In this document: one piece after another, positions 3,161-60,411 of the stretch
How positions within the stretch are numbered: the first letter of the stretch is position 1
Layout: each line of letters begins with the position of its first letter
Assembly: GCA_944319915.1 (NCBI GenBank)
Contig: CALUEY010000001.1
Span: forward strand, 62,001 to 126,000
Direction of reading: 5' to 3'
Length of the DNA: 64,000 nt
Source of the DNA: an uncultured Prevotella sp.
GTDB taxonomy: Bacteria > Bacteroidota > Bacteroidia > Bacteroidales > Bacteroidaceae
Made by a program: the position numbers and the translations under genes
Notes under the pieces: generated by a model
Database searches by the model: none
Told to the model about the DNA's origin: nothing
The model's input: only the letters and a program-made list of their open reading frames with translations

Positions 3161-3313
3161 GTTGCCGTGCAATACGGCCTGTTTCGCGCTCCCAAACGGC
3201 CTGTTTCGCCATTCAATACGGCTTGTTTTGCAATGCAAAACGGCCTTTGCCGCAACCCGCTGAGGCTCAGCGCGGTATGGCGGAAGGCCGGTTTTGCGAA
3301 CAATCATTACATT
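3161..3313 (+). repeat. Intergenic 22-bp repeat array with tail, copy A
   Basis: Units lie at 3161-3180 (20 nt), 3181-3202, 3203-3224 and 3225-3246, each close to GTTTCGCnnTnnAAnACGGCCT. A tail ending near TGCGAACAATCATTACAT (to 3313) follows. An AT-rich TTTACAA flank lies upstream (3125-3131). The element fills the convergent gap between recO and the EnvC-like gene. The same layout recurs five more times in the window. Confidence 0.75.
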
Positions 3314-3326
3314 TTTTGCCTGCCCG

Positions 3327-4883
3327 CTACCTGCCGAGCCACGACTCGGGGTTGAGCTTTGCCTTCTCTCGGCGCAGCTGGAACTGCAGCACGTGGTCGG
3401 CCCCCACGGTGCCGAGGGCCTGGCGCGTGCTCACGTGCTGGCCCTTGCGCACGCTCACCGAGGCAAGGTTGAAGTAAACGGAGATGTACTTGCCGTGGCG
3501 CACCATGACGCCGCTGCTGCCCGAGCCGGGTATGCTGAACACCGCGCTCACCTCGCCGTCGAAGATGCTGCGGGCCTGGGCGCCCTGCTTCCCCAGTATG
3601 CTTATGCCGTTGTTGTTGAGCCTCACGCCCCGCAGGCCGTCCACGTTGTACTGCCCGAAGTGGGTCACTATGCGGTAGGGGCCGGTGATGGGCATGGGCA
3701 GGCGGCCGCGGTTGCTCTCGAAGTTGCCGCTTATGCGGCGGTCCTCGGCGTTGAGACTGAAAGCCTCGTCGCTCTTCTTCTTGGCCTCGGCCAGCTCGCG
3801 GGCGCGGCTCTTGGCCTCGGCCTTGGCCTTGCGCTCGGCCTCCTTGCGCTCGCGCTCGGCCTCCTCGGCTGCCTCCTCGGCTGCCTTGCGCTTGTCGGCC
3901 GTGGCCCGGCGGGCGGCCTCCTTCAGCTGCTCCTCGCGCCGCTTGGCCTCGGCTATGCGCTGCGCGTTGGCCCGGGCGGCCGCCTCGGCGGCTGCCTTCT
4001 TGCGCGCTATCTCGGCCTGCCGCTTGCGCTCGGCCTCCTCGGCGGCCTTGCGCTTGGCCTCGGCTATGGCGCGCTGGCGCGCCTTCTCCACCTCGATGGC
4101 CACGAGGCGGTCTATCTCTGCGTTGAGGGCGGCGTCGCGCTTCTGCTGCTGCGCTATCACTGCCTGTATGGCTTTTTGCTGCTGCTTGAGCGTGGCCACC
4201 ACCTTCTCTTGCTCGGCCTGCTTGCCCTCAAGGGCGCGGTGCTCCTGCTCGCCCTTGCTCAGCAGCTCGTCCTTGCGCTTGCGGGCCGCCAGCAGCAGCC
4301 CCTGCTTCTGGCTTACCTGGGCCTGCTTGGCCTTTACGGCCTCGCCCTGCGCCCGCTGGTAGGTGGCGTACTCGCGGGTGAAGCGCAGGCGGCGGTACAT
4401 CTGCGTGAAGCTCTTGGCGCTGAAGATGAACATCAGCTGGTTCTGTATGGAGCGGTTGCGGTGCATGTAGCGCATCGACTTCACGAACTTCTCCTTGCGG
4501 TCGGCAAGCTCCTTGCCGAGCGTGGCCAGCTGCCTGTCGAGCCGCGCTATGTCGGCGTTGAGCGTGCCGATGTCGCGGCGTATGGTGTCTATGCTCTTGC
4601 GCTTGTCGGCTATCTCGGTGTTGATCACCATGAGGTTCTGCAGCCGTTTCTTCACGTCGCGCTCGTTGTTGCGCAGCTTGCGCTGCTGCGTCTGTATCTG
4701 CTTCTTCACCTGGGCGCGCTCGTTGCGCAGCCCCGAGATGGTGGTGGGCTTCTTCTTGGTGGCCTTCTTCTTGGTGGTGCGCGTGGCCTGGGCCTTGCGC
4801 TTGGGCGTGGCCTTGCGCGTCTGGGCGTGGCACGGGGCCAGGGCCAGGGCGGCTATGAGCAGCAGTATGTGTAGGCGTCTCAT
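3327..4883 (-). CDS. EnvC-like murein hydrolase activator (coiled coil plus degenerate LytM/M23 domain)
   Basis: The 518-residue product has a signal peptide ending near ALAPCHAQ, then a Lys/Thr-rich segment. A very long coiled coil spans about residues 48-370 and is rich in Lys, Arg, Glu and Ala. A C-terminal LytM (M23) domain runs from about 395 to 518. In the last domain the usual zinc-ligand segments are altered: the H-x3-D region reads GVRLNNNGIS, and the final H-x-H strand reads LQFQLR. It is therefore predicted to be catalytically inactive, like EnvC, and to activate a cell-wall amidase in the periplasm. It is the last gene of the dut > TPR > DUF4292 operon, 17 bp after the DUF4292 gene. 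Confidence 0.85.
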   Translation of the reverse strand: MRRLHILLLIAALALAPCHAQTRKATPKRKAQATRTTKKKATKKKPTTISGLRNERAQVKKQIQTQQRKLRNNERDVKKRLQNLMVINTEIADKRKSIDTIRRDIGTLNADIARLDRQLATLGKELADRKEKFVKSMRYMHRNRSIQNQLMFIFSAKSFTQMYRRLRFTREYATYQRAQGEAVKAKQAQVSQKQGLLLAARKRKDELLSKGEQEHRALEGKQAEQEKVVATLKQQQKAIQAVIAQQQKRDAALNAEIDRLVAIEVEKARQRAIAEAKRKAAEEAERKRQAEIARKKAAAEAAARANAQRIAEAKRREEQLKEAARRATADKRKAAEEAAEEAERERKEAERKAKAEAKSRARELAEAKKKSDEAFSLNAEDRRISGNFESNRGRLPMPITGPYRIVTHFGQYNVDGLRGVRLNNNGISILGKQGAQARSIFDGEVSAVFSIPGSGSSGVMVRHGKYISVYFNLASVSVRKGQHVSTRQALGTVGADHVLQFQLRREKAKLNPESWLGR

Positions 4884-4900
4884 GGGTGTTGGCGGTGGTT

Positions 4901-7934: not shown

Positions 7935-7962
7935 CTGTGGTTTTGGCTTGTTAGCTAAGGCG

Positions 7963-7993: not shown

Positions 7994-8035
7994 TGCTTTT
8001 GAGCCTAAAAGTAATGTTTTAACGGAAAAAAGCAC

Positions 8036-10532: not shown

Positions 10533-10655
10533 GCAATCATTTTCCAAAGGCGGTGCGCCCGCCGCCATTTTTTTTGCATTGCCGGTGGCGGTGCGCGGCA
10601 GGCCAACGGCTCTGAAACATTTTTACAAAGAGGCCGCCAGAACCTGCCTGTGGCC

Positions 10656-10810
10656 GTTTTGCGATGTGGAACGGCCCGTTTGAGGCAACGGAACGGCCCG
10701 TTCGGCAGTGCCGGACGGGCCGTTTTGCGCTGTCAAGCGGGTTGTTTCGCAAGTTGCTGCCAGCCAGGTGGTTGCGCTGGGCGGCGCAGAATGCGAAATA
10801 TGCTTACACA
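10656..10810 (+). repeat. Intergenic 22-bp repeat array with tail, copy B
   Basis: Four exact-length units occupy 10656-10677, 10678-10699, 10700-10721 and 10722-10743 (for example GTTTTGCGATGTGGAACGGC plus CC). The tail CAGGTGGTTGCGCTGGG...TGCGAAATATGCTTACACA runs to 10810. A TTTTTACAAAG flank lies upstream (10620-10630). It lies in the 495-bp gap between the SGNH promoter and the end of the GNAT gene. Nothing else recognisable lies in 10811-10919. Confidence 0.75.
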
Positions 10811-19993: not shown

Positions 19994-20010
19994 CGCCCGG
20001 GCGGGCGCCA

Positions 20011-20059
20011 TGGCAGTCGAGGCCAATTGGAGGGCAAGCCCAATTGGCCTCGACTGCCA
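20011..20059 (+). terminator. 20-bp perfect hairpin after the T9SS operon
   Basis: TGGCAGTCGAGGCCAATTGG (20011-20030) is perfectly complementary to 20040-20059 across a 9-nt loop. It starts 18 bp after the gldN stop. There is no long T tract, so termination may depend on the exceptional stem, or the hairpin may stabilise the 3' end. Confidence 0.65.
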
Positions 20060-20107
20060 ATGTGAAAGCATCTTTTATCCATTATCATTAACAAAACAAC
20101 AACGCTT

Positions 20108-20725
20108 ATGAAGAAAATTTTTACCGCTATCATCGCCGCAGTGGCGCTCCTTACGGCCACCTCGGCGCAGGCACAGATCAAGTTCGGCCTCAAGGGAGGT
20201 CTCAACGTAACCAACATGAGCTTCAGCCGCGACGTGGTAGACAAGTCAAACCGCACAGGCTTCTTCGTAGGCCCGATGGTCAAGGTCACCATCCCCTTGG
20301 CTGGCCTGGGGCTTGACGCCGGGGTGCTCTACGACCAGCGCGAGGCCGAGGCCAGCGATGAGGGCGACAAGCTCAGCGTTAAGCAGCGCAGCATCAACAT
20401 CCCCATCAACCTCCGCTACAACTTCGGCTTCAGCAGTCTCGTGGGGGCCTACGTGGCCGCCGGCCCGCAGTTTGGCATCGCCGTGGGCGACAAGAGCTTC
20501 CAGTGGGATGATGAAGTGAGCTACGACGTGAGCAACACCAACTTCAGCATCAACGTCGGGGCGGGCATCACCCTGCTCAGCCACTTGGAAGTGGGCTTCA
20601 CCTACAACATAGCCTGCGGCAAGACGGGCGAGGTGAACGTGTGGAACGCCACAAGCAGCGCGTGGAACCAGATAACCAAGGGCCGCGCCAACGCTTGGCA
20701 GGTGTCGGCAGCCTACTGGTTCTAA
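20108..20725 (+). CDS. PorT-like outer-membrane beta-barrel protein
   Basis: The 205-residue product has a signal peptide (MKKIFTAIIAAVALLTATSAQAQ). A small 8-stranded barrel follows, beginning IKFGLKGGLNVTNMSFS and ending AWQVSAAYWF with a terminal Phe. This matches the Bacteroidota outer membrane beta-barrel family (OMP_b-brl_2), to which PorT/SprT also belongs. The position directly after the T9SS operon is suggestive, but the protein is similar to many small porins, so a secretion role is not shown. It is separated from gldN by the strong hairpin. Confidence 0.75.
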   Translation: MKKIFTAIIAAVALLTATSAQAQIKFGLKGGLNVTNMSFSRDVVDKSNRTGFFVGPMVKVTIPLAGLGLDAGVLYDQREAEASDEGDKLSVKQRSINIPINLRYNFGFSSLVGAYVAAGPQFGIAVGDKSFQWDDEVSYDVSNTNFSINVGAGITLLSHLEVGFTYNIACGKTGEVNVWNATSSAWNQITKGRANAWQVSAAYWF

Positions 20726-20814
20726 GGGGCTGCCAGCGGGCATCGTCAGCGCCGCACCCACCTTGGCCGGGGCGCAGCCACGTTGCCCTGTGACGCCACT
20801 TGTGTAAATGTTTT

Positions 20815-20972
20815 TCGCAGATTGCCCGCTTTTCCGTGCCAGATGCATAACCGGCTGGGATGCAGGAAGTTGGCCGTGGCATCTGTCTTGTGATACGAAA
20901 GAGGCCGTTTCGCGCTGCGGAACGGCCTCTTTTGCCCTGTCAAACGGCCTCTTTCGCCCTGCCGTTTGGCCG
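20815..20972 (-). repeat. Intergenic 22-bp repeat array with tail, copy C (reverse orientation)
   Basis: Units lie at 20907-20928, 20929-20950 and 20951-20972. The tail lies on the left, and on the minus strand reads ...CAGCCGGTTATGCATCTGG...CTGCGAAAAACATTTACACA, matching the tails of copies B and E. It occupies the gap between the PorT-like gene and the DUF4421 gene. Confidence 0.7.
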
Positions 20973-21016
20973 CCATGGTGGTTAGGCCCTGCCCTTTGAC
21001 AAAATAAAATCACGTT

Positions 21017-22066
21017 ATGTGCGTTATGAAGATGATGAACCGCCTCGCCCTTTTGCCCCTCGCGGCCTTTGTGGCCGCCTCAGCCTGCGCCGCTGCCCCC
21101 GCCGACTCTGCTGTTGCCTGCGGCCACGGCAACAGGCCTCTGGGGCGCGTAAGGCGCGCAGTAGACCACTTGCTCGACCTGCGCGACAGCCACCGCCGCC
21201 AGCGCGCCGACACCGCCTACATAGTGCGCACGCCCGGGCGGCTGCGGCTCAAGCTCGCGTTCAATGCCTCCGGCTCCGACTTGGATACGCGGTGGGCCAG
21301 CGGCGGCAGCGAGTTCCGCTCGCGGCTGAAGGCCCAGGCCAAGAACACAATGAGCCTCACGGCCTCCTACCGCGGCCTGTCGCTCAGCCTCTCGCTTAAC
21401 CCAGCCAAGCTTGCCGGGCGCAACAAGGACTACGAGCTTAACGTAAACGCCTACGGCAACCGCTTTGGCGCCGACCTCATCTTGCAGTCGGCCAAGACGT
21501 ATGAAGGCACGGTTGAGGCCCCCTCGGGCGTGGTGGAGATGCCTGTGGGCAGCGTAAGCCAGAAGATGCTTATGGCAGACGCCTACTACGTGTTCTCGGG
21601 CCGCCGCTTCTCGTTCCCGGCGGCGTTCACCCAGTCGTGGCTCCAGCGGCGCAGTGCGGGCAGCTTCATGCTCGGCGTGTCGTTTGTGGGCGGCCGTTTC
21701 CGTGCCGACAAGGCGGGCACCCTCGGCGGCGGCTCGGCCCGCCTCAGCCTGCTTAGCGGCAGCGTGGGCGCGGGCTACGCCTACAACTGGGTGATAAGGC
21801 GCCGCTGGCTGCTCCACATATCCACCCTGCCGCAGCTTGTCGTGGCCAGCCGCAACCGCCTTGAGGCAGACGGCGAGGCGCAAAAGATGCCTTACAGCTT
21901 CTCCAACGCCGTAGTGGTGGGGCGCCTTGCCCTTGTGCGCCACTTCGGCACATACTTCGCCGGGATGAACGCCGTGGTCAACGCATCGTTATTTGGCGAT
22001 GCCGACAGCTTCTCGCTGAGCACGCTCAAGTGGCGCGCCCGCGTGTTCGTGGGTATAAGGTTGTAG
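21017..22066 (+). CDS. DUF4421 family outer-membrane/periplasmic protein
   Basis: The 349-residue product has a signal peptide (NRLALLPLAAFVAASACAA). The body resembles DUF4421 of Bacteroidales: DTAYIVRTPGRLRLKLAFNA near residue 67, then MSLTASYRGLSLSLSLNPAK and NKDYELNVNAYGNRFGADL. Beta-strands of an apparent barrel continue to VFVGIRL at the end. The function of the family is unknown. Start codons at 21017, 21026 and 21035 are all in frame; the longest is given. It converges on the phosphoesterase operon with a shared terminator. Confidence 0.75.
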   Translation: MCVMKMMNRLALLPLAAFVAASACAAAPADSAVACGHGNRPLGRVRRAVDHLLDLRDSHRRQRADTAYIVRTPGRLRLKLAFNASGSDLDTRWASGGSEFRSRLKAQAKNTMSLTASYRGLSLSLSLNPAKLAGRNKDYELNVNAYGNRFGADLILQSAKTYEGTVEAPSGVVEMPVGSVSQKMLMADAYYVFSGRRFSFPAAFTQSWLQRRSAGSFMLGVSFVGGRFRADKAGTLGGGSARLSLLSGSVGAGYAYNWVIRRRWLLHISTLPQLVVASRNRLEADGEAQKMPYSFSNAVVVGRLALVRHFGTYFAGMNAVVNASLFGDADSFSLSTLKWRARVFVGIRL

Positions 22067-22074
22067 GTTTTTGG

Positions 22075-22118
22075 CTTGCCGCCCCTTGCCGTGCCAACAG
22101 GCGGCAAGGGGCGGCAAG
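22075..22118. terminator. Bidirectional terminator, 17-bp perfect stem
   Basis: CTTGCCGCCCCTTGCCG (22075-22091) pairs perfectly with 22102-22118 across a 10-nt loop. It is followed by CGGTTTT on the plus strand and by AAAAACC-derived T residues on the minus strand. It sits between the convergent DUF4421 and phosphoesterase genes. Confidence 0.85.
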
Positions 22119-22126
22119 CGGTTTTC

Positions 22127-23239
22127 TCAGGTGTTTTTTATTGTTGCCACTATGTATTCCGAGCGTGTGCCTATGCGGAACTTGCCGCCCCATATGCCCA
22201 TGCCCGAGCTTACGTAGTAGCGTGTGTGGCCGCGCTGCCACGGCCCGGCGGCGCACTCGTACACCGCCTCCGTAATCCAAGATATGGGCCACAGCTGCCC
22301 GTGGTGGGTGTGGCCGCTCAGCTGGAAGTCGGCCCCGGCGCGCTCGGTGCGCTCAAGGTGGTAGGGCTGGTGGTCCATCACGATGGTGAATTTGTCGTTG
22401 TCGGCCTGTCTCATCAGTTCAGCGATGCTGCGGCGGGCGGGGTTTGAGCGGTCGTCGCGGCCGATGATGCACAGCTGCCCCACCTCGGCCACGCTGTCGC
22501 GCAGCAGCGTTATGCCCGCCTCGGCCATGAAGCGGGCTGCCCCTTCCATGCCGCTGTAGTACTCGTGGTTGCCCGGGCAGGCATACACCGGTGCCTTTAT
22601 GCGCCTTAGCTCGGCAGCCATGCCTTCCTCGATGATGGGCCTGAGGCTGCCGTCAACCACGTCGCCGGCCAGGAGCACTATGTCGGGGTGCTCGGCGTTC
22701 ACCATGTCTACCCACCGTGCCAGCTCCCTGCGGCGGTTGTGGTAGCCCAGGTGCAGGTCGCTCATCATCACCACGCGCATTTCGCGGCCAATGTCCTTGT
22801 GGGTTGTAAGCTCCAGCGGCTGTCGCACCTTGTGGCGGTAGTTCAGGTAGCCGTAGACGAAGAGCGCGGCAATTGCGGCGAAGAGCGTGGCCGCCACGGT
22901 GCCGTTGGCGTGGAGACAATGGCGCGGCACCAAGTGGGCGAGCCGCCCGATGTCGAGCAGCAGTAGCGCCATGACCACGTAGAGCAGCACGAAGATGGCC
23001 GAGTTGCCCACCTCGTAGACTGCCGAGGCCATGCCCAGCGGCATGCCGTCGGTGGCCTTGGCGAAGCTTAGGGGAAACGCCAGCATCGGCAGTGCGCACG
23101 CCGCCATGGTGGCCATGCGCGCCGGCACGCCCCACGGCAACAGGCACCAGATGTGCCACAGCGCGTAGGCCAGGCCCGCTATGGGCAGCACGAAGAAGGT
23201 TATCGTCCACATATTGATGGTAGGTAGAGTCTTTGCCAT
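22127..23239 (-). CDS. Membrane-bound metallophosphoesterase (YaeI-like)
   Basis: The 370-residue product has about four N-terminal transmembrane helices (about residues 10-30, 40-60, 80-100, 113-133). A calcineurin-like phosphoesterase domain follows with all metal-binding motifs: SDLHLG (D161, H163), AGDVVDG (D193), GNHEY (N224, H225), a His in DHQP and SGHTHHG. Members act on UDP-sugar or lipid-linked substrates at the membrane. Cotranscription with waaA (gap 15 bp) hints at an envelope lipid role, but the substrate is not determined. Confidence 0.85.
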   Translation of the reverse strand: MAKTLPTINMWTITFFVLPIAGLAYALWHIWCLLPWGVPARMATMAACALPMLAFPLSFAKATDGMPLGMASAVYEVGNSAIFVLLYVVMALLLLDIGRLAHLVPRHCLHANGTVAATLFAAIAALFVYGYLNYRHKVRQPLELTTHKDIGREMRVVMMSDLHLGYHNRRRELARWVDMVNAEHPDIVLLAGDVVDGSLRPIIEEGMAAELRRIKAPVYACPGNHEYYSGMEGAARFMAEAGITLLRDSVAEVGQLCIIGRDDRSNPARRSIAELMRQADNDKFTIVMDHQPYHLERTERAGADFQLSGHTHHGQLWPISWITEAVYECAAGPWQRGHTRYYVSSGMGIWGGKFRIGTRSEYIVATIKNT

Positions 23240-23254
23240 TGGCAGCGATGCCCC

Positions 23255-24472: not shown

Positions 24473-24480
24473 GGCAGTGC

Positions 24481-25998: not shown

Positions 25999-26032
25999 GG
26001 TGACAAAATCTATATCAGAAAGTATTTTTGTG

Positions 26033-26040
26033 CAAAATTA
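26033..26040 (-). promoter_or_regulatory. -7 promoter box of the gltX operon
   Basis: The minus strand reads TAATTTTG followed by C, 35 bp upstream of the gltX ATG. No clear -33 element. Confidence 0.55.
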
Positions 26041-26128
26041 CAATATTTTTCCCACTCTTTGTTTTTTTCCACCATTATTTCTCTGAAAAACGGCGGCCTG
26101 GCGGCTGGCTGGTGGCCGCGCTTTTGTT

Positions 26129-26285
26129 GTAAAGATTATTCATGATTCGCCCCGCCTCGCGCAACTGCCTGTGCGCCAGCGCATTGCCTTAAGTGCCGTT
26201 TTGCCGTGCAAAACGTGCCGTTTCGCGCTCCCGAACGGCATGTTTCGCAGGGCAAAACCGCCCGTTTTGCAGCGCCAAGCGGCAG
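26129..26285 (-). repeat. Intergenic 22-bp repeat array with tail, copy D (reverse orientation)
   Basis: Four units of exactly 22 bp lie at 26198-26219, 26220-26241, 26242-26263 and 26264-26285. The tail on the minus strand reads GGCAATGCGCTGGCGCACAG, then GCAGTTGCGC, ending AATAATCTTTACAACAAAAG. It lies in the divergent gap between gltX and the HDIG gene, so it cannot serve only as a terminator there. The remainder of this 535-bp gap (26286-26480) shows only an inverted CCTGCTTGCCGGCGCCGGCAAGCAGG palindrome near 26329-26355. Confidence 0.72.
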
Positions 26286-26491
26286 CGGCCCCTCTTCAAG
26301 CTCCCCGTTGTAGACATTTGCTCAGGCCCCGCCTGCTTGCCGGCGCCGGCAAGCAGGCAGCCCCTTCCCCAAAAAAACCTGCACCTCACGGATATGCCAA
26401 CGCCTTGGCTCACTTGGCCCCATGGATTACAATGCCCTTTGCCGCACATGAAAAAAAGCTCCACCGGCATTGCCGTGTCGATTTTTTTTAG

Positions 26492-26499
26492 TACTTTCG
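26492..26499 (+). promoter_or_regulatory. Candidate -7 box of the HDIG gene
   Basis: TACTTTCG followed by C resembles the -7 consensus with one deviation (TTCG for TTTG). It is 34 bp before the ATG and preceded by a T8 run. Confidence 0.4.
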
Positions 26500-26533
26500 C
26501 AATCGTAATCAAGCAACGACAGCACAAAGACCG

Positions 26534-28609: not shown

Positions 28610-28617
28610 AGCTGGGG

Positions 28618-28645
28618 GCTGCACAAAGCGTTTGTTTTGTGCAGC
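28618..28645 (+). terminator. Terminator hairpin of the HDIG gene
   Basis: GCTGCACAAA (28618-28627) pairs with TTTGTGCAGC (28636-28645), a 10-bp stem with an 8-nt loop, 8 bp after the stop codon. Confidence 0.6.
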
Positions 28646-28676
28646 AACGGGGTGCCTTTGGGTTAACAATGCTTAA

Positions 28677-28703
28677 TAAACCACCTTGTTCTCGGGTGGT
28701 TTA
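28677..28703 (+). terminator. Second hairpin upstream of the FadL promoter
   Basis: TAAACCACC (28677-28685) pairs with GGTGGTTTA (28695-28703), loop 9 nt. It could be a second terminator or an operator-like palindrome, since it ends 12 bp before the -7 box of the next gene and covers its -33 position. Confidence 0.5.
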
Positions 28704-28715
28704 GGACAGTTTTCC

Positions 28716-28723
28716 TACCTTTG
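28716..28723 (+). promoter_or_regulatory. -7 promoter box of the FadL-like gene
   Basis: TACCTTTG followed by C, 27 bp before the ATG at 28751. The palindrome at 28677-28703 overlaps the expected -33 region. Confidence 0.6.
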
Positions 28724-28750
28724 CAGCCAATTTTTTAAACTTTGTTTGTA

Positions 28751-30292: not shown

Positions 30293-30328
30293 GCCGGCCA
30301 TAGCGCGGTTTTGCCGCCATTGGGCTTT

Positions 30329-30367
30329 GCTGCCGCAGCGCATCGGTGCATGGTGCGTTGCGGCAGC
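30329..30367. terminator. Bidirectional hairpin between FadL-like gene and priA
   Basis: GCTGCCGCAGCGCA (30329-30342) pairs with TGCGTTGCGGCAGC (30354-30367), 14 bp with one G-U pair and an 11-nt loop. It lies in the convergent 215-bp gap. No gene is seen in the rest of the gap. Confidence 0.65.
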
Positions 30368-30507
30368 GGCCGTATTGCCAAGCTCCCTGAACGGCAGGGA
30401 GCGCATGACTGGCCATGGTGAACGGGCGGTGGTGAAAAGGCGGACATACGGTTAACCTCCAAACTCGTAAACAGTAACCCCATATTCGTAATCCGTAGCT
30501 CCTGATT

Positions 30508-32781
30508 CTACATCGGGTCAACGTCGAAGTAGACCTGCACGGAGCGGAAACGCGCGTCGGCGGCAATCTGCCTCTGCGCCTCGCGCAGGTAGCGGCGCAC
30601 CTTGGCCATGTCGATGCCAAGTTCTAGCTTCAGCACAATCTTGCGTATGCAGAGAGCCTTGACGCGGGCCACGGCGGGGCGGTCGGGGCCCAGCACGCGC
30701 TCGCCGAACCAGCTGCGCAGCAGCGCGCCCATGGCAGCGGCGGCGTGGTCGATGAGCGAGTCGTCGCGGTGCTTCATGTAAACATACGTAAGGTGGGTGA
30801 ACGGCGGGTAGCCAAAAGCCCTCCGCTCGGCAAGCAAGTCGCGGTAGATGGCCCCGGCGTCGCCCCTCACCACCTGCCCTATGAGCGGCGCGCCGGGGCT
30901 TTTCGTCTGCAGCACCACTATCCCGCGCCCTCCCTTGCGGCCCGCGCGCCCGCTCACCTGCGCCATCATCATGTAGGCATGCTCGTAGGCGCGGAAGTCG
31001 GGATAGTTCATCATGGAGTCGGCGTCGAGTATCCCCACCACGCTCACGCGGTCGAAGTCGAGCCCCTTGCCTATCATCTGGGTGCCTATGAGCACGTCGG
31101 TGCGCCCCCGGGCGAAGTCGTCGATTATGCGCTCGTAGGCCCCGTTGGTCCTCGTGGTGTCGAGGTCCATGCGCGCCACGCGCGCTTCGGGGAACGCATC
31201 GCGCACGCGTTCCTCTATCTTTTCCGTGCCGTAGCCCCTGGCTTGCAGCTCGCGGCTGCCGCAGGCCGGGCAAACGGCAGGCACGTCATAGCTTGCGCCG
31301 CAGTAGTGGCAGGTGAGTTGGTTCATCCGCCGGTGCAGCGTGAGGCTCACGTCGCACCGCTCGCAGCGCGGCACCCACCCGCATTGGCGGCACTCCACCA
31401 TCGGCGCGAAGCCACGGCGGTTCTGGAACAGTATGACCTGGCGGCCCCCCTCTATGGCCTGCCGCATCCTTGCGAGCAGCGAGGGCGACAGCGGGCCGGC
31501 CATCATCTTGCGGCGGCGCAGGTCTGCCACGTCTACCACCTGCACTTCGGGCAGCTCTATCCCCTTGTAGCGCTGGGTGAGGCGCACCAGCCCGTACTTG
31601 CCCGCCATGGCGTTGTGGTAGCTCTCCAGGCTTGGCGTGGCGGTGCCGAGGAGGGTCTTTGCGCCCGCCATGCTGGCCAGCATTATGGCAGTGCTGCGGG
31701 CGTGGTAGCGCGGGGCGGGGTCCTGCTGCTTGAACGACTGCTCGTGCTCCTCGTCGATTATCACCAGGCCCAGGCGCGTGAAAGGCAGCAGCACGGCCGA
31801 GCGCGCCCCGAGTATTACGTCGTAAGGCTCGGCAGACAGCTGCTTGCGCCATATCTCCACGCGCTCGTCGTCGGAGTAGCGCGAGTGGTATATGCCCAGC
31901 CTGCGGCCGAACACGCGGCGCAGCCGCTCGGTTATCTGCACCGTGAGGGCTATCTCGGGCAGCAGGTAGAGCACTTGGCGGTGGCTGTCGATGGCCTCCT
32001 TGATGAGGTGTATGTATATTTCGGTCTTGCCGCTCGACGTCACCCCGTGGAGCAGCACCACGTTCTTTGCGGCAAACTGCGCCCGTATGGCTTGATAGGC
32101 CGCCTGCTGCGCCTCGCCCAGCGGCTTCATCCGGCCGAAGTCGGGGTCGCCCCCGTCGCCCAGCCTGCCCACCTGGCGCGTGTAGGTAGACAGGAAGCCG
32201 CGGTCCACGAGGGCCTTCACGGCGGCCACGTTGGCGTGGCTGGCGTTCAGCAGTTCCTCGCGCGTCACCTCGCGGGCGGCTTCGGGCGAGCCTCCGTCGG
32301 CGGCCTCGGCCCACCCCGACAGTTCGAGGAAGGCCTCGAACACAGCCCTCTGGCGGTCGGCGCGCGCCAGCATGGCCAGGGCCGTGTGCAGTGCGCGCGC
32401 GCTGCACAGCCCCGGCCTCAGCCTCACGCACAGCTCGGTGCGCGGCCTGTAGCCCTCCTCGGCCTTCAGGCCGGCGGGCAGCGCCGCCTTCATCACGTCG
32501 CCTATGGGCGCCATGTAGTAGTCGGCCATCCACTGCCACAGCCTGTACTGCGTCTCCGTCACCACCGGCTCGGCGTCGAGCACCCTCATCACGTCGCGCA
32601 CGGCTATGCCCTCGGGCTTGGTGGTGTGGGTGCGGATGATGATGCCCACGTGGGTCTTCCTTGGCCCGAACGGCACGAGGGCGCGCACGCCAAAGCGCGC
32701 CTCGCCCTCCAAGGAGGCAGGCACGGAGTAGGTGAAAAGGCCGTAGAGCGGCACCGGGAGCAGTATGTCGGCGTATGTCAT
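30508..32781 (-). CDS. priA: Primosomal protein N' (replication-restart helicase PriA)
   Basis: 3'-5' DNA helicase that reloads the replisome at stalled forks. The 757-residue product starts MTYADILLPVPLYGLFTYSV (3' DNA-binding domain). It carries Walker A GVTSSGKTE, a DEEH Walker B (IIDEEHEQSFKQQDP), four CxxC-type zinc pairs (CRQCGWVPRCERC, CHYCG, CPACG) and the helicase C-terminal motifs (IGTQMIGKGLDFDRVSVVGI, QVSGRAGR). The ATG at 32781 was preferred to an in-frame TTG nine bases upstream, because the latter overlaps the -7 box. Confidence 0.95.
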   Translation of the reverse strand: MTYADILLPVPLYGLFTYSVPASLEGEARFGVRALVPFGPRKTHVGIIIRTHTTKPEGIAVRDVMRVLDAEPVVTETQYRLWQWMADYYMAPIGDVMKAALPAGLKAEEGYRPRTELCVRLRPGLCSARALHTALAMLARADRQRAVFEAFLELSGWAEAADGGSPEAAREVTREELLNASHANVAAVKALVDRGFLSTYTRQVGRLGDGGDPDFGRMKPLGEAQQAAYQAIRAQFAAKNVVLLHGVTSSGKTEIYIHLIKEAIDSHRQVLYLLPEIALTVQITERLRRVFGRRLGIYHSRYSDDERVEIWRKQLSAEPYDVILGARSAVLLPFTRLGLVIIDEEHEQSFKQQDPAPRYHARSTAIMLASMAGAKTLLGTATPSLESYHNAMAGKYGLVRLTQRYKGIELPEVQVVDVADLRRRKMMAGPLSPSLLARMRQAIEGGRQVILFQNRRGFAPMVECRQCGWVPRCERCDVSLTLHRRMNQLTCHYCGASYDVPAVCPACGSRELQARGYGTEKIEERVRDAFPEARVARMDLDTTRTNGAYERIIDDFARGRTDVLIGTQMIGKGLDFDRVSVVGILDADSMMNYPDFRAYEHAYMMMAQVSGRAGRKGGRGIVVLQTKSPGAPLIGQVVRGDAGAIYRDLLAERRAFGYPPFTHLTYVYMKHRDDSLIDHAAAAMGALLRSWFGERVLGPDRPAVARVKALCIRKIVLKLELGIDMAKVRRYLREAQRQIAADARFRSVQVYFDVDPM

Positions 32782-32787
32782 CGGCTG

Positions 32788-32795
32788 CAAAGTTA
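32788..32795 (-). promoter_or_regulatory. -7 promoter box of priA
   Basis: The minus strand reads TAACTTTG followed by C, ending 6 bp before the priA ATG. Transcription would start at or next to the A of the start codon. Confidence 0.6.
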
Positions 32796-32891
32796 CTCAA
32801 AAATAGCTTACGCAGTATGGGGCAGCCGTCAAAATGGGCTCCCGCGCGATAAAAACAGCCCCGGGCTGGCCGCCCATTCAGCATTATTTAG

Positions 32892-32899
32892 TATATTTG
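32892..32899 (+). promoter_or_regulatory. -7 promoter box of the DUF389 gene
   Basis: TATATTTG followed by C, 56 bp before the ATG. No convincing -33. Confidence 0.5.
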
Positions 32900-32955
32900 C
32901 GGCATTGGGCGCGGGGCGTCAGCGCCGGCAAGCGCCAACCTAAAGCTCACCGACT

Positions 32956-34359
32956 ATGGAAGAAAAGAAAGACATGCACCAGATGCTGCACCTTGCAAAG
33001 GCCTTGTGGCAGGCCTTTGTGGCCATGGTAAAGAAATACTTCAACGCCAAGCCCGACCGTGAGGACGAGGCCGCCGTGGTGGCCGCCATCAGCGCCGACG
33101 TGTCGTTCCGCGGCGCGCGGCTGTGGGTGCTCGTGTTCGCCATACTCATAGCCTCGCTCGGGCTTAACGTCAACTCCACGGCTGTCATCATCGGCGCCAT
33201 GCTCATAGCGCCGCTCATGGGCCCCATCATCGGCATGGGGCTGGCCGTGGGCATAAACGACTTCGAGCTGCTAAAGCGCTCGGCCAAGAACTACCTCGTG
33301 GCCACGGTGATAAGCGTGATCACGGCCACGGCCTACTTCCTGCTCACCCCGATTGACGAGGCACAGTCGGAACTGCTGGCCCGCACCGCCCCAACCCTCT
33401 ACGACGTGCTCATTGCCCTGTGCGGCGGAGCGGCGGGCATAGTGGCCCTGGCCACCAAGGGCAAGGGCAACGTGCTGCCCGGGGTGGCCATAGCCACGGC
33501 CCTGATGCCGCCGCTCTGCACGGCGGGCTTCGGCCTTGCCACGGGCAACGTCATCTATTTCTTCGGGGCGTTCTACCTCTTCTTCATCAACACCGTGTTC
33601 ATAGCCCTGGCCACCTACATGGGCGTTAGGATGCTGGGCTTCAGCCAGAAGGCGGCGGGCAGCGCCCGGCGGCAGGCCGACGTGCGCCGCTACATAGTTA
33701 CGATAGTGGTGGTGACGATGATACCTGCGGTGCTCATGACATACCGCATAGTGAGGCAGACGCTGGTGAGGGCCAGCGCCGGCCGCTTCGTAAGCGAGAT
33801 GCTCGACAACGCCGGCACCCGCGTGGTGTCTTACGATGTAGACGAGGACAGCCTTACGCTGCGCGTGGTGGCCGTGGGGCGCGAGCTGTCCGACAGCGCC
33901 ATAGCCGCCGCCGACCGCCGCCTGGCCGACTACAAGCTGGGCCGCTACGCCCTGAGGGTGATACAAGGCACGGAGTCGGACTCGGTGATGATGCTCAACA
34001 ACCGCCTCACCACCATGCGCACCACCTCCGACAACTACTCGGCCATGCTCCGTGAGAGCGCGGCGCGCATGGCCGGGCTGCAGGAGCAGCTCAACGCCTA
34101 CGTGCGCTACGACGCCGTGGCCACCGACGTGGCGCGCGAGGCGGGCGCGCTCTTCCCCGCCGTGGCCACGGTGAGCCTTGCCCTCACGGCCCAGGCCTCT
34201 GCCGACACGGCCACGCTGCGCCGCCTGCCCTCGGCCATAGTGGGCTTGCGCCGCGGCTCCGCGCTCAGTGCCGCCGACCGCCGCCGCATGGCTGAGTGGA
34301 TGCAGCGGCGCCTCGGGGTGGACACGCTGGTGCTCGTAACCACTGCCGTGCCGCGCTGA
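32956..34359 (+). CDS. DUF389 family membrane protein
   Basis: The 467-residue product has a short cytoplasmic N-terminus, then about six transmembrane helices between residues 55 and 265. The conserved DUF389 core is visible (NSTAVIIGAMLIAPLMGPIIG, VATALMPPLCTAGFGLATGN-like segment). A soluble C-terminal part (about 270-467) is rich in charged residues and includes a predicted coiled coil around 355-380. The function of the family is unknown; membrane transport has been suggested. The C-terminal soluble extension is longer than in short DUF389 proteins. It is the last gene before the repeat cluster that borders the fimbrial locus. Confidence 0.85.
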   Translation: MEEKKDMHQMLHLAKALWQAFVAMVKKYFNAKPDREDEAAVVAAISADVSFRGARLWVLVFAILIASLGLNVNSTAVIIGAMLIAPLMGPIIGMGLAVGINDFELLKRSAKNYLVATVISVITATAYFLLTPIDEAQSELLARTAPTLYDVLIALCGGAAGIVALATKGKGNVLPGVAIATALMPPLCTAGFGLATGNVIYFFGAFYLFFINTVFIALATYMGVRMLGFSQKAAGSARRQADVRRYIVTIVVVTMIPAVLMTYRIVRQTLVRASAGRFVSEMLDNAGTRVVSYDVDEDSLTLRVVAVGRELSDSAIAAADRRLADYKLGRYALRVIQGTESDSVMMLNNRLTTMRTTSDNYSAMLRESAARMAGLQEQLNAYVRYDAVATDVAREAGALFPAVATVSLALTAQASADTATLRRLPSAIVGLRRGSALSAADRRRMAEWMQRRLGVDTLVLVTTAVPR

Positions 34360-34436
34360 GCCACGCCCCGGCTGGTGACCGTGGGCGGCCATCGCATTTA
34401 TTTACAATCACCGCGCGGCGGCGCGCCCCTTGCGGC

Positions 34437-34590
34437 GTTGCCTTGCAAAACGGGCTGTTTGGCACTGCCAGACAGCCCGTTTCGCATTGCCGGACGGCCT
34501 GTTTCGCGCTGCAAAACGACATATATCGCAAGGCACTGATGCACAGGTGGTTGCGCGGTTTGTTCCGCTTTGCGAAATATTTTTACGTGA
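34437..34590 (+). repeat. Intergenic 22-bp repeat array with tail, copy E
   Basis: Units lie at 34437-34456 (20 nt, same short first unit as copy A), 34457-34478, 34479-34500 and 34501-34522. The tail GGCACTGATGCACAGGTGGT...TTTGCGAAATATTTTTACGTG follows, to 34590. A TTTACAA flank lies upstream near 34400. It is the first element of the 988-bp gene-free stretch 34360-35347. Confidence 0.75.
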
Positions 34591-34714
34591 GCTTTACAAG
34601 AAAAGTGAGCCTACACCATGCTTTCTGCCACTTGTTGAGACGCAAGATTTTGCGTCTCCTCATGGCAGCTCCCGTTGCTTATCTCGAACTCGCGTCGTTG
34701 CTTCCACGTGCTCT

Positions 34715-34852
34715 CCCACGTTCAGGCGGGTTTTCAACCCGCCAGTGTCCGTGGCCGGGTCTGTGACCCGGGGAAGTGAATAAAGCAAGCATGGCGCGGG
34801 TTGCAAACCCGCAACAGACAGCAGGCGGGTTGAAAACCCGCCTGAACGTGGG
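34715..34852 (-). repeat. MITE-like element, copy I (138 bp, perfect 29-bp terminal inverted repeats)
   Basis: Bases 34715-34743 and 34824-34852 are exact inverted copies. Each repeat is itself a hairpin (GGCGGGTT-TTC-AACCCGCC). Inside lie two more hairpins, CCGGGTCTGTGACCCGG and GCGGGTTGCAAACCCGC. The orientation is opposite to copies II and III. The flank at 34664-34714 matches, on the other strand, the flank of copies II and IV. No coding capacity. Confidence 0.85.
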
Positions 34853-34942
34853 AGAGAGCGAGGGTGAGTGGGCTGGCAAGCATTTGTAGCCTGCGCTCTG
34901 GGGCGTGGCTCAGTGGGGCGGCAACTCCTTGTAACATCATTT

Positions 34943-35139
34943 AACCCAAATCGGTCGTTAGAACGTCAACCACACTCATAACGATGTTTGTTGGCTCTTC
35001 ACCCATCTTCCGCACTGCTGCCGTCATCTTGTTTCCCGCTTTTGCTCGATGTAGCCCGCTACATCTTCGACAAAAGCGGGAAGCAATCTGCCCGGCAGCA
35101 GCACGAAACCTGAGTGAAGTCTAACGACCGATTCGGGTT
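34943..35139. repeat. 197-bp near-palindrome
   Basis: The outer arms AACCCAAATCGGTCGTTAGA (34943-34962) and 35120-35139 pair with one mismatch. Inner paired segments are CTTCAC/GTGAAG, TGCTGCCG/CGGCAGCA and TTTCCCGCTTTTG/CAAAAGCGGGAA, and the centre is GATGTAGC-CC-GCTACATC. The whole block folds into one long interrupted stem. It holds no gene. It may be a small mobile element or a structured RNA. Confidence 0.75.
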
Positions 35140-35190
35140 TACCCCCTTTGAATGTAACCTCCGCTGATATTCAAGTCTTTTATATTAATG

Positions 35191-35301
35191 TGTGTTGCGT
35201 TGCATTCCGATTTCAAATGTGTTGCGTTGTAGGAATTATCTTGGATGTTAACACGGTTTAACTTTCGGGGGGGGTAAAATGCAAAAAGTGTTATATCTTT
35301 G
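35191..35301 (+). promoter_or_regulatory. Regulatory region of the fimbrial locus: direct repeats, G8 tract and -7 box
   Basis: Two exact copies of TGTGTTGCGTTG (35191-35202 and 35218-35229, 27 bp start to start) look like tandem regulator sites. Downstream, a run of eight G (35267-35274) occupies the -33 position relative to the -7 box TATCTTTG (35294-35301). A TTTC (35263-35266) precedes the G run, 27 bp from the -7 box. Transcription should start about 40 bp before the first gene of the locus. Confidence 0.6.
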
Positions 35302-35347
35302 CATCGCTCTATATGTTTAGGCGGTATACATGGATTAAAAACTAGTC

Positions 35348-36706
35348 ATGTGCGCGTTCCGCATTCACCGTGCGAAGGACGTTGCAGGCCGCGATGATTC
35401 ACTATTAAGGAAAGTGAGACTGAGAAATCTGATTGCAAGAACATTTGTTTGCCTCTGCATGATGGCAGTGGTCGATGTTGGAAGGGCGCAGGTAGTAGAC
35501 CGCACCCCGCGTACCGATACGCTCTCTTTTGCCGACCGACTGTCTGTCCGTGCCAACTTCGTTGACTGGACGTTCATGCTCCCCAATGTAGAGGTGGAGC
35601 TGAACCTCGGCAACAAGAACTGGAGCCGGTGGGCGGTGGGCCTGGGCCTCACCGGGAACTGGCAGACCTCGCATACGTTCAAGCCCGGCGTGGTTTACAA
35701 CCTCATGGAAGTGAAGGCCGACCTCCGCTATTACTGGAGGCCGAGGCTGATAGGCACGCGCGGCGTAACCAAGCAGACGGGCCTGTTAGACCGCCTTTTC
35801 TCCTGCCGCCGCGACGTGGTAAAGCGCCCGTCGATGGTGTTCTACCGGGGCGCTTACATTGCCTATTCCGACTATTCGTTCAAGTTTGGCTCCGAGGGAA
35901 ACCAAGGCTCCGCCCTCACATTGGGCGTCAGCTGGGGCGCGGTGCGCCCGCTCTACGTGTTCCGGCGGGGCAACAGCCTCGACCTCGAGCTTGGCGTGGG
36001 CGTGGGCCTGTGCTACAGGCGCAACGACAAGTACCGCCACGACCGCGAGGACGACTGCTACCCCATCACCGAGAAAGGCTCGTGGGGCATTGTGCCGTTC
36101 CCTGTGGTGAGCGACATCCGCGTGGGCCTTATATACAGGCTGGGCAAGTATCCCTCTACCTCGATGTACCGCTGGCGCTACGATGTCGACGCTGCATACG
36201 CCGCGCTCAACGACAGCATCAACGAGGCGCGCGAGGTGGAGCGCATCAACAAGCATACCGCCGACAGCATAACCAAACTGATTGACACCGAGTTCTGGCG
36301 CGTTTACAACGCCGCCGAAGGCAAGAACAAGGCCAAGGCCGACTCGCTCGACCGCGCCGACAGCAAGCGGCGCGAGCTGCAGAAGGCTGCCGAGAAGGCC
36401 GCCCGGAAGCGGCGCAAGGACGGCAAGGCCAAGGCCGACTCTGCCGCAGTGGCCCTGTCCAAGGACAGCACTGTGGCGGCCCCGCAGGCCGACACGGTGG
36501 CTGTGGACAGCGCAGCCGCGCCTACAGCCGGCCAGCCGGTCCAGGCAGCGGGCAAGGCCGACGGCGGCAACGGCAATAACGAGGGAGCCTCAGGCAATGA
36601 GGGAAATCCGTCCGGCAAGGAAAGTGGTAAAAACGACGAATCGGGCGGCGAGGCTCCCTCCGCCGCCGAAAGCGAAGGAAAGGAGGACGGCGATGAGGCT
36701 AAATGA
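35348..36706 (+). CDS. DUF3575 family outer-membrane protein with charged C-terminal extension
   Basis: The 452-residue product has an N-terminal signal sequence (FVCLCMMAVVDVGRAQ). A DUF3575-type barrel of about 240 residues follows (NFVDWTFMLPNVEVELNLGN, VKADLRYYWRPR, SWGAVRPLYVFRRG). The last about 190 residues are low-complexity Ala/Lys/Glu/Gly/Ser, first basic coiled coil (KRRELQKAAEKAARKRRKDG) then acidic and Gly/Asn-rich. DUF3575 proteins recur in Bacteroidales fimbrial operons, where they may anchor or help export subunits. First gene of the locus. Its end overlaps the next gene by 14 bp. A GTG at 35414 is an alternative start. Confidence 0.7.
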   Translation: MCAFRIHRAKDVAGRDDSLLRKVRLRNLIARTFVCLCMMAVVDVGRAQVVDRTPRTDTLSFADRLSVRANFVDWTFMLPNVEVELNLGNKNWSRWAVGLGLTGNWQTSHTFKPGVVYNLMEVKADLRYYWRPRLIGTRGVTKQTGLLDRLFSCRRDVVKRPSMVFYRGAYIAYSDYSFKFGSEGNQGSALTLGVSWGAVRPLYVFRRGNSLDLELGVGVGLCYRRNDKYRHDREDDCYPITEKGSWGIVPFPVVSDIRVGLIYRLGKYPSTSMYRWRYDVDAAYAALNDSINEAREVERINKHTADSITKLIDTEFWRVYNAAEGKNKAKADSLDRADSKRRELQKAAEKAARKRRKDGKAKADSAAVALSKDSTVAAPQADTVAVDSAAAPTAGQPVQAAGKADGGNGNNEGASGNEGNPSGKESGKNDESGGEAPSAAESEGKEDGDEAK

Positions 36707-47905: not shown

Positions 47906-47927
47906 CGAACTTACATTCCTGTACTCT

Positions 47928-49409
47928 ATGACGAGACATCTGAGATATGCACTCTGCGCCGCCGCCTTGTGGCTGACGGCGCTCGGCGCCGGCGCTCAGG
48001 GCGACACCAAGGCCGCCCTCGAGGCCGTCGACAGCATCGTGCGCAAGTACTCTAACTACAAGGACGTGCTCGACCCCTACGTGGCCAAGATATGCGCCAA
48101 GCACAAGGACAGCCCCGAGTTCATGGTGGGCGTGGCCAGGGCCTACTACTCCTTCTCACGGCCTAAGGGGCAGGCGTTCTACACCTTCCACACGCGCGAC
48201 ACCGCCAACGCCCGCAAGTACGTGCAGATGGCCATCCAGCTCAACCCCACCTACGTGCCGGCCTACATCTGCGGCGGCGACATCGAGCGCACGCAGTTCA
48301 ACCGCGAGCCGGCCCTCGACTGGTACCGCCGCGCCATTGCCGCCAACAAGGCCGACCCCGCAGGCTATCTGGCCTATGCCGACTACGCCTCTGAGACCGA
48401 CCCTGCCGAGGCCCTGCGCGTGCTCGAGGCCCTGCGCGACTACAACCCCGGCTACCCCGTTTACCTTGCCGCCGCACGCATCTGCGACCGCCGCGGCGAG
48501 TGGGAGAAGTCGCTCGAATACTTCGCAAAGGCCGAAAAGGACAGCATGACCTACCATGACTTCGTTACCTACGCCCTCAACTGCGAGCTTATGCGCGAAT
48601 ACCAGCAGGGGCTCGACGCCGCCCTGCTCGGCCTTGAGCAGTATCCCGACAGCGCCGCCCTCAACCGCCTGGCCATGAGGCAGCTCGTGATACTCAACAA
48701 GTACACCGACGCGCTCGTTTACGTTGACCGCCTGTTCAACAAGTCGGAGAACGCCAAGATAGGCTGGCAGGACTACAACTACGCCGGGCGCGCATACTTC
48801 GGCGCCAAGCGCTACGGCGAGGCCCTGTCGATGTTCACCAAGATTACCGACGACGACGAGCTTAAGCCCGTGGAGCGGTCGTCGCTGGTGGACTATACGG
48901 CCAGGACCTACGCCAACCTCGGCGACTACGACAAGGCCATAGCCATATTCAGCGACTTCGTGGCAAGGCAGGAACGCGACTCCGCGCTCTCGCCCGGCGA
49001 CGTGTACAACCTTGCAAACATGTACATGCGCAAGGCGCAAGACTCCACCACCGTCAACTCCACCGAGGCGTGGCTCAAGGCCGACTCCACCTTTGCCGTC
49101 ATGGCGGCGCGCTTCACCGCCAACGCCGACTTCGCCCTCGCCAACCGCCTGCAGATTGCTTACGTGCTCGACCCCGACTTCGAGACGGGCCGCTGCGTGC
49201 CCATAGCCGAGCAGCTCGTGGCCGTGGTTACGGCCAAGGGCGAGGCCGACGACGCCTCCACCGCCCGCCTGCTCAACGCCTACCGGTTCCTGGCGTTCCA
49301 CTACACCATCAACAAGAACCGCAAGCGCAGCAGGATGTACTGGCAGAAGGTGCTCGAACTCGACCCCGGCAACGAAACTGCCAAGAACGTATTAGGCATA
49401 AAAGGCTGA
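47928..49409 (+). CDS. Exported tetratricopeptide-repeat protein
   Basis: The 493-residue product has a signal peptide (LCAAALWLTALGAGAQ). Helical TPR-type repeats follow throughout (NARKYVQMAIQLNPTYVPAY, ALDWYRRAIAANKADPAGYLAY, EKSLEYFAKAEKD, NRKRSRMYWQKVLELDPGNE). It begins 22 bp after the triple-barrel gene and ends the locus before a strong terminator, so it is probably a periplasmic scaffold or assembly factor for the surface structure. No enzymatic motif. Confidence 0.75.
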   Translation: MTRHLRYALCAAALWLTALGAGAQGDTKAALEAVDSIVRKYSNYKDVLDPYVAKICAKHKDSPEFMVGVARAYYSFSRPKGQAFYTFHTRDTANARKYVQMAIQLNPTYVPAYICGGDIERTQFNREPALDWYRRAIAANKADPAGYLAYADYASETDPAEALRVLEALRDYNPGYPVYLAAARICDRRGEWEKSLEYFAKAEKDSMTYHDFVTYALNCELMREYQQGLDAALLGLEQYPDSAALNRLAMRQLVILNKYTDALVYVDRLFNKSENAKIGWQDYNYAGRAYFGAKRYGEALSMFTKITDDDELKPVERSSLVDYTARTYANLGDYDKAIAIFSDFVARQERDSALSPGDVYNLANMYMRKAQDSTTVNSTEAWLKADSTFAVMAARFTANADFALANRLQIAYVLDPDFETGRCVPIAEQLVAVVTAKGEADDASTARLLNAYRFLAFHYTINKNRKRSRMYWQKVLELDPGNETAKNVLGIKG

Positions 49410-49482
49410 GAAGCCTCCATTCTCTTTTTCATACATTTTGTGGCTCAGCGGAGCCATCAGTCACGTTTATAGTTTGACACTC

Positions 49483-49515
49483 GGCCCGTCCTTGCACTGC
49501 AGGACGGGCCTTTTT
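49483..49515 (+). terminator. Intrinsic terminator of the fimbrial locus
   Basis: GGCCCGTCCT (49483-49492) pairs with AGGACGGGCC (49501-49510), loop 8 nt, directly followed by TTTTT (49511-49515). This is a textbook intrinsic terminator 74 bp after the TPR gene. It is built from the first unit of repeat array F. Confidence 0.85.
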
Positions 49516-49665
49516 GCATCCTCAAACATGCCGTTTCGCGCCACAAAACAGGCCGTTTCGCGTTGCAGGAAGGGCCGTTTTGCAATGCGCTGAGTGCCAG
49601 GTTGTTGCGCTGGTGCGTATTCCCAGGGGCGATGCACCGGCGAAACAGCACTGTATCCGTGCCGT
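49490..49665 (+). repeat. Intergenic 22-bp repeat array with tail, copy F
   Basis: Units lie at 49490-49511, 49512-49532 (21 nt), 49533-49554 and 49555-49576. The tail GCAATGCGCTGAGTGCCAGG, then TTGTTGCGCTGG, continues to about 49680, where TTTACAAGAG recurs. It overlaps the terminator above. It lies in the 717-bp gene-free stretch 49410-50126, together with repeat copy II. Confidence 0.72.
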
Positions 49666-60409: not shown

Positions 60410-60411
60410 TT

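Follow-up and report, generated by a model that had tools for sequence, protein, structure and literature searches.

The question raised by a 64,000-nucleotide stretch of an uncultured Prevotella sp. genome (assembly GCA_944319915.1, contig CALUEY010000001.1, positions 62,001 to 126,000; the window, below) is what recurs six times between its genes. An earlier note, made from the letters alone, had described six arrays of 22-bp units, each followed by a conserved tail, and had suggested that they suit a DNA-binding protein. We find that one type of non-coding element of about 195 bp underlies all six arrays and that it is very probably a homologue of PINSR, an intergenic repeat reported from oral Prevotella species. 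The reading that we favour, at a probability of about one half, is that these are old, fixed repeats in which the array is a curved, putative protein-binding site, perhaps with a role in chromosome structure. The organism is a member of Prevotella sensu lato near Marseilla massiliensis; the 7TM-HD protein encoded beside the fourth element shares 95% identity with that of the uncultured Prevotella metagenome-assembled genome BRZ_LE bin5 (G144, the sister species used below) and 86% with that of M. massiliensis.

One element type in many copies

All six arrays lie where the earlier note had seen them, in exact 22-bp phase, with 4, 4, 3, 4, 4 and 5 units in window order, four copies on the forward strand and two (20885 and 26198) on the reverse. 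A profile search, which the note had proposed as a check, found many more. At a score of at least 25 the window held 6 arrays against 0 in 100 first-order shuffles, and a 649-kb sample of its genome (G000; 2.63 Mb in 45 contigs), made up of the window, 60 kb of contig C1 and all of C2, C3 and C4, held 54, against 0 in one shuffle per stretch and 5 in the reversed sequence; at a score of 35, 50 arrays were left and the reversed control gave 0. The sample is 25% of the genome, and its density of about one copy per 11 kb would extrapolate to some 220 copies in the whole. Throughout G000, the 20-mer GTTTCGCNNTGCNAAACGGC with up to 3 mismatches has 235 + 240 matches, the reversed pattern 9 + 9.

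The 54 copies align without gaps and share one order: left box, variable stretch, four 22-bp units, tail dyad, right box. The repeat unit is GTTTnGC-nnn-GCnAAAC with a 5-bp linker near GGCCT. Four is the usual number of units and the distance from array to tail is usually constant, with an 18-bp step to the tail dyad CTGr-nnn-yCAG, which is followed by GTTGCGC. Because the linker too sits on a dyad, a half-site recurs every 11 bp in alternating direction. Type I ends are GTAA-N7-TTACAAA in the same direction on both sides, that is, direct repeats; the TTTACAA flank that had been noticed in several copies stands on both sides in 29 copies (full type I) and on one side in 13. Seven copies carry palindromic type II ends, near TTGCAAATATGCAA on the left and TTAACATAAAAATGTTAA on the right, one has GTCAAAAATyAGGG on both sides (type III) and 4 are unclear. 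The core is rather constant and the ends are exchangeable. By codon-usage gene calls made in this analysis, none of 53 arrays overlaps predicted coding sequence by more than 20 bp, and the units run head to tail without spacers, so that the element is, as had been held, neither a coding repeat nor a CRISPR (clustered regularly interspaced short palindromic repeats) array.

Relation to PINSR

PINSR was described as a 188-bp intergenic repeat, present 177 and 184 times in two strains of P. intermedia, about three-quarters of the positions being common to both (Naito et al., 2015; PMC4755523). The available part of that report gives it as specific to an oral group and of unknown function; of 18 species examined by the polymerase chain reaction (PCR), P. 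intermedia, P. nigrescens, P. falsenii and P. disiens were positive (PMC4755523). One of the PINSR-positive strains, P. falsenii JCM 15124, carries elements resembling those of a further genome of the genus, G108, whose consensus is 190 bp long, and genome G017 likewise carries this type. A profile built from 40 of the G000 copies, 14 of the 54 being left out, matched all 57 G108 arrays (best E 1.1e-19, covering positions 36-201 of 203 in the best match). The profile of the G108 type matched 38 of the 54 G000 arrays, with 1 of its 66 matches elsewhere, and the reversed-sequence control gave 5 matches for each of the two profiles. When the array was removed, the tail-only profiles gave a weaker signal, 10 of 14 matches (best E 0.0008) and 15 of 23 (best E 0.003) falling at arrays, against a background in which places at arrays amount to 3.7% of the G000 sequence.

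From this comparison of profiles, as distinct from a direct comparison with the printed PINSR consensus, we conclude that the window elements and the G108 type appear to be one family. Like PINSR, the window element is non-coding, intergenic and about 190 bp long, its positions are largely common to close relatives, and its copy number (about 220 and 245 extrapolated here) is near the 177-184 in print; the profiles join the window and G108 elements over most of their length. It differs in that its lineage lies outside the P. intermedia/nigrescens group, in a sequence so diverged that a group-specific PCR would not be expected to detect it, and in its mosaic ends, of which type I are direct repeats. 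The restriction to the oral group does not hold, since homologous elements are present in the lineage of the window and other members of the genus carry related arrays. The elements very probably form a diverged, wider PINSR family and are therefore not unprecedented. The description of PINSR, in its available part, is without the four-unit 22-bp array, its phasing, selection or spacing (PMC4755523), and in open-licence PubMed Central, as far as the accessible parts of its texts go, nothing was found on such anatomy, selection or spacing, PINSR and BrickBuilt being the nearest repeats. Among the PINSR matches listed, judged by title and the start of the abstract, only PMC4755523 concerns the repeat. 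The new findings are that the family occurs more widely, that its anatomy is phased at 11 bp and has exchangeable ends, that conservation is site-specific and that, in one lineage, the copies avoid one another.

Conservation in a sister species

The available parts of G000 and G144 were compared, a site being counted as shared when an array lay within 2.5 kb of the matched gap. Both flanks could be placed in G144 for 26 of the 54 G000 elements, and 24 of these had an array there; in the other direction 23 of 43 G144 elements were placeable and all 23 were shared. The 22-bp phase and the tail are thus kept between related species, as the earlier note had asked of a real element. Within 18 orthologous pairs the mismatches are unevenly distributed: the TTT/AAA tracts differ at 44 of 432 positions (10.2%), G1/C17 at 16 of 144 (11.1%) and GC/GC at 39 of 288 (13.5%), rising to 43 of 270 (15.9%) in the linker, 65 of 216 (30.1%) in the loop at positions 8-10 and 49 of 144 (34.0%) at positions 5/13 (TTT/AAA against the variable positions, Fisher p = 4e-14). 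Fourfold sites differ by 22.0% between the two genomes. Six of 24 pairs had been dropped, namely five at identity of at most 0.57 and the near-identical copy at 49489, and the absolute rates are underestimates because the five most diverged pairs are missing. Without three pairs at least 90% identical the difference remains, with 42/360 (11.7%) at TTT/AAA against 64/180 (35.6%) and 48/120 (40.0%) at the variable positions. Mismatch is also low at the end boxes and approaches 0.5 outside the element.

This pattern bears on the possibility, which we regard as unlikely without dismissing it, that the family is a selfish non-autonomous repeat without host function, akin to miniature inverted-repeat transposable elements (MITEs) or to repetitive extragenic palindromic (REP) sequences. 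Units and end boxes would then have been sites for a transposase or recombinase, the present copies would be decaying relics, and their spacing would reflect purged harmful insertions or past target immunity. Many copies, a single core with mosaic ends, a patchy distribution over the genus and eroded copies would all fit, as would three main linker haplotypes in G108 (28, 11 and 8 of 56 arrays, 1 of 57 being left out) that resemble subfamilies of amplified masters. Yet the shared loci do not clearly show any movement after the separation from G144, and plain decay does not predict that half-site bases are conserved relative to their neighbours in the same copies. The REP-associated tyrosine transposase (RAYT; Y1, PF01797) is not consistently present either: it occurs in 12 of 18 array-carrying genomes, two of which are probably one genome, and in 7 of 14 selected because they have few arrays or none, with one copy in G000, and it was not found in the carriers G108, G017, G102, G012, G084 and G146. 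As to the ends, those of G108 are imperfect inverted repeats (11 of 15); the type I ends of G000 are direct repeats.

No clean empty insertion site was found, either at 20885 in G144 or in the gap at 30.4 kb relative to a third genome, L056. The third window element has no array in the orthologous gap of G144, and a similar array stands at the corresponding place in L056, so that loss in G144 would be likelier than gain.

Gene context and spacing

The arrays lie in all three kinds of gap, as first described: among 53 in G000, 26 are in codirectional, 14 in divergent and 13 in convergent gaps, against a background of 195, 64 and 56. Within codirectional gaps, 12 copies run along the genes and 12 opposite (8 of the 54, with low profile scores, left out of this count). 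In G108 none of 57 arrays lies in coding sequence by codon-usage calls, while 40 of 57 overlap raw open reading frames (ORFs) of at least 60 amino acids, and convergent gaps are over-represented there (23/56 against 52/305 background gaps).

The 50 intervals between G000 arrays average 11.4 kb, the shortest being 3.5 kb. In 5000 simulations that chose intergenic gaps of at least 60 bp at random, about 11.6 intervals below 3.5 kb were expected against 0 of 50 observed, and none of the 5000 was as extreme; below 5 kb there were 3 against 16.7 expected. The coefficient of variation (CV) was 0.68 against 0.87-0.89 by chance (p 0.012-0.020). As this is only mildly more even than chance, the pattern is one of short-range avoidance rather than strict regularity. 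The minimum in G144 is 4.6 kb over 39 intervals, which is not independent of G000. The density in G108 is equal, at 57 arrays in 620 kb and a mean interval of 10.9 kb. That the arrays serve to space the chromosome is conceivable but less likely than not.

One further candidate did not survive. The element-free stretch after 49.6 kb was considered as a mobile island and dropped, because Pfam finds fusA and ribosomal protein genes in it; fusA and the genes for ribosomal proteins L3, L2, S3, L5 and L6 lie at 53502-63522, within a long stretch without elements.

Spread in the genus and other repeat systems

The 22-bp dyad pattern with up to 3 mismatches occurs in 63 of 120 genomes of the genus, G000 included, mostly with few matches each; 18 of the 120 have at least 20 matches and at least three times the reversed control. 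Examples are G017 (821 against 3), G108 (775 against 1), G063 (120 against 0) and G004 (120 against 4). High counts in G082 (423 against 434), G148 (161 against 147) and G149 (296 against 236) are non-specific. Beyond the genus, a generic 22-bp pattern with up to 2 mismatches gave 1 or 2 matches in 9 of 246 genomes of the order, which were treated as chance. By eye, the TTT/AAA tracts with their 11-bp rhythm are kept across lineages and the linkers are lineage-specific. The G000- and G108-type profiles match 20 and 30 of 47 loci of other lineages at E of at most 1e-3, in a comparison made without a reversed control and with loci of which some overlap and some were chosen by pattern. G113 and G144 have the same RAYT match at the same coordinates and are probably one genome.

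The E. coli REP sequences and bacterial interspersed mosaic elements (BIMEs) are dispersed intergenic palindromic units in mosaic arrangements, with a candidate link to DNA topology. The window units differ from them in their strict 22-bp phasing, their lineage-specific linkers and the lack of RAYT as a consistent companion. Pneumococcal BOX elements consist of a left part, a repeated middle and a right part; the modular plan is alike, whereas unit length and sequence differ and the unit number of the window element is nearly fixed.

BrickBuilt of Porphyromonas gingivalis has, according to the available part of its description, a 23-nt repeat present 1 to 22.8 times, 19 copies and IS5-like terminal inverted repeats (PMC4596501). 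Both BrickBuilt and the window element have a leader, short tandem repeats and a tail, lie between genes and occupy loci conserved between strains or relatives. The window element differs in its 22-bp unit, usually present four times where BrickBuilt varies in number, in its extrapolated total of about 220 copies and in its ends: no match to the BrickBuilt terminal repeat, near GAGACCTTTGCA, with at most 2 mismatches was found within 160 bp of any of the 54 arrays. The common plan, and the promoter activity reported for BrickBuilt in E. coli in the part of that paper available (PMC4596501), might suggest a mobile promoter or local regulatory element, as proposed for P. gingivalis. We consider this very improbable, as position and orientation relative to genes are inconsistent and sigma-70-like matches are not above shuffles (2 against 3.6 expected in 20001-36000, with a consensus that does not cover Bacteroidetes promoters).

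Binding site or hairpin

If the array works at the level of double-stranded DNA, its TTT/AAA tracts, one every 11 bp, would bend the helix and put the half-sites on one face. A wedge model predicts a bend of 76 for the 54 G000 arrays and 92 for 56 G108 arrays. The controls, all from G000, reach 38.5 in 162 other intergenic stretches and 25.9 in 200 coding ones; z exceeds 2 relative to dinucleotide shuffles in 29/54, 38/56, 14/162 and 8/200 respectively. We estimate from the model that the arrays would bend two to three times as much as other stretches. Co-variation at positions 5/13 was not found in the four units, with 16, 13, 14 and 16 of 46 copies observed against 16, 15, 16 and 17 expected; in this test and those of pairing excess below, 8 of the 54 copies, with low profile scores, were dropped. 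Conserved half-sites, the lack of co-variation and predicted curvature all fit the DNA-binding protein that had been suggested for the array; this much of the suggestion stands. Evidence is evenly poised as to whether the array is a selected DNA-level binding or bending site.

A number of points weigh against the reading that we favour. No protein that binds the array was found in this analysis, and many genomes of the genus have no signal or one at chance level. The G108 arrays were compared with G000 controls of other base composition, and the curvature may simply follow from the dyads. Among the ortholog pairs used for the mismatch rates, two are 100% and one 91% identical, which suggests recent exchange or overlap of metagenome bins. 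Avoidance is weak in G108, with 8 intervals below 3.5 kb against 14.3 expected (p 0.015), 17 below 5 kb against 20.0 (p 0.19) and a p of 0.08 for the CV; the gap test was made first on raw ORFs, and with codon-usage gene calls most of its p values became weaker. Deletion by recombination between neighbours would not easily explain the stronger avoidance in G000, because the G108 copies look more alike than the G000 copies. The remaining points concern pairing. RNA folds of six stretches (four elements, two of them on both strands) gave hairpin z scores of -8.4, -4.1, -3.5, -3.1, -2.3 and +0.1, the first belonging to a long hairpin in element 2 (10620-10760). A few conserved pairs are commoner than expected, among them those at offsets 6 and 7 of unit 2 (z 3.2 and 4.4); joint decay or pairing may lie behind them. 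Of 46 copies, 23 contain a perfectly complementary linker pair where 13.3 would be expected, and the best hairpin in each copy comes to 13.80 pairs, compared with 13.25 (p <1/300). Pure double-strand binding does not predict this excess.

Other pairing statistics are less pronounced: mean best linker pairing is 4.17 against 4.00 (p 0.057), inner adjacent pairs give p 0.62, and in G108 adjacent pairs lie below expectation (4.18 against 4.79) and skip-one pairs above it (5.66 against 5.19). Tail-dyad pairs 103-111 and 104-110 rank among the top scorers (z 4.5 and 5.6), but equally high scores are reached by pairs compatible with no helix, and subfamily structure therefore contributes to these values. 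The null result on co-variation was first taken as clear evidence against any role of pairing, a view overturned by the strong hairpins and the pairing excess. The excess can come from selection for hairpins or from template switching in imperfect palindromes. Separately, one G108 element (L213 near 16490, G108:C1 near 196490) has, by eye, unit 2, linker 2 and unit 3 inverted between linkers 1 and 3, which are complementary; this points to inversion or template switching within the array.

The hairpins leave a structure-based role possible, and the element could thus be a transcribed hairpin like E. coli REP/BIME, stabilising mRNA 3' ends or stopping transcription at the ends of genes. Strong predicted folds in several stretches, the excess pairing with its complementary linkers and the enrichment in convergent gaps of G108 speak for this. 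We nevertheless judge it improbable. Divergent gaps hold about as many G000 copies as convergent ones, codirectional copies are split equally between the two directions, positions 5/13 do not co-vary and one of the six folds is no better than shuffles. Terminator-like sites in 20001-36000 number 17 against 13.5 in shuffles, with two immediately next to element 4 but none overlapping any of the three arrays in this region, and Rfam at gathering scores gives no match in the window except tRNA-Glu.

For a curved binding site we propose the following. A protein, possibly a nucleoid-associated factor, would bind several dimers side by side on the array. The element would have spread long ago, probably through a copying process, the enzyme for which may since have been lost, and may now be kept as a site of chromosome architecture or domain spacing. 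In a bolder and rather improbable extension, a chromosome-organising system specific to Prevotella would use the arrays as evenly scattered anchor sites. A nucleoid protein that evolves fast would then bind the curved DNA as four dimers in phase, once in about 11 kb; half-site and linker specificity would shift by lineage as arrays and protein co-evolve, while the 11-bp phase, the four-unit length and the spacing would stay constant.

The copies in the window

The window copies, whose boundaries were set by eye, measure 193-217 bp between end boxes (Table 1).

Table 1. Elements of the window, with positions counted from its first letter
Element	Position	Strand	Ends	Array and landmarks	Gap and relatives
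1	3117..3311	+	type I	left box AAACAATGTTTACAA; four-unit array 3159-3241; tail dyad; right box ends ATTACA	convergent gap recO / M23 peptidase; G144 ortholog aligned
2	10614..10808	+	type I	array 10656-10738; GGTTGCGC tail at 10770-10777	ortholog in G144
3	20802..21006	-	degenerate element	three units 20885-20945; weak tail	
4	26127..26323	-	type I	array 26198-26280	divergent gap gltX / 7TM-HD gene
5	34395..34587	+	type I	array 34435-34517; tail CACTGATGCACAGGTGGTTGCGC	ortholog in G144
6	49460..49676	+	left end weak; right TTTACAA 49670-49676	five phased units 49489-49593	near-identical copy at orthologous place in G144

At the place of element 4, inspection by eye finds an element present in L055, recognisable in L056, eroded in L057 and not seen in L058 and L059. 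The element at 49489 and those at G000:C2 62296 and 69678 match their G144 orthologs completely or almost completely, against a median identity of 92.4% for aligned genes; such near-identity suggests recent exchange or overlap of metagenome bins here too. A seventh candidate place, 60291-60329, had a negative total score and was dropped as chance. A second repeat, with long inverted arms containing GAACGTGGG, lies at 34704-34872, 49759-49918 and 52065-52223, its copies being 76-91% alike; in the four sampled stretches this 9-mer occurs 7, 1, 9 and 6 times, and in three of the four its count is higher than in 10 shuffles.

Significance

PINSR, known since 2015 from a few oral species, had found no explanation; on the present evidence it very probably belongs to a family of wider occurrence in the genus. 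This raises the questions of which protein holds the arrays and whether they determine how far apart chromosome domains lie in a major genus of gut and mouth. With a steady anatomy, measurable conservation, predicted curvature and avoidance in one lineage, the function of PINSR becomes testable.

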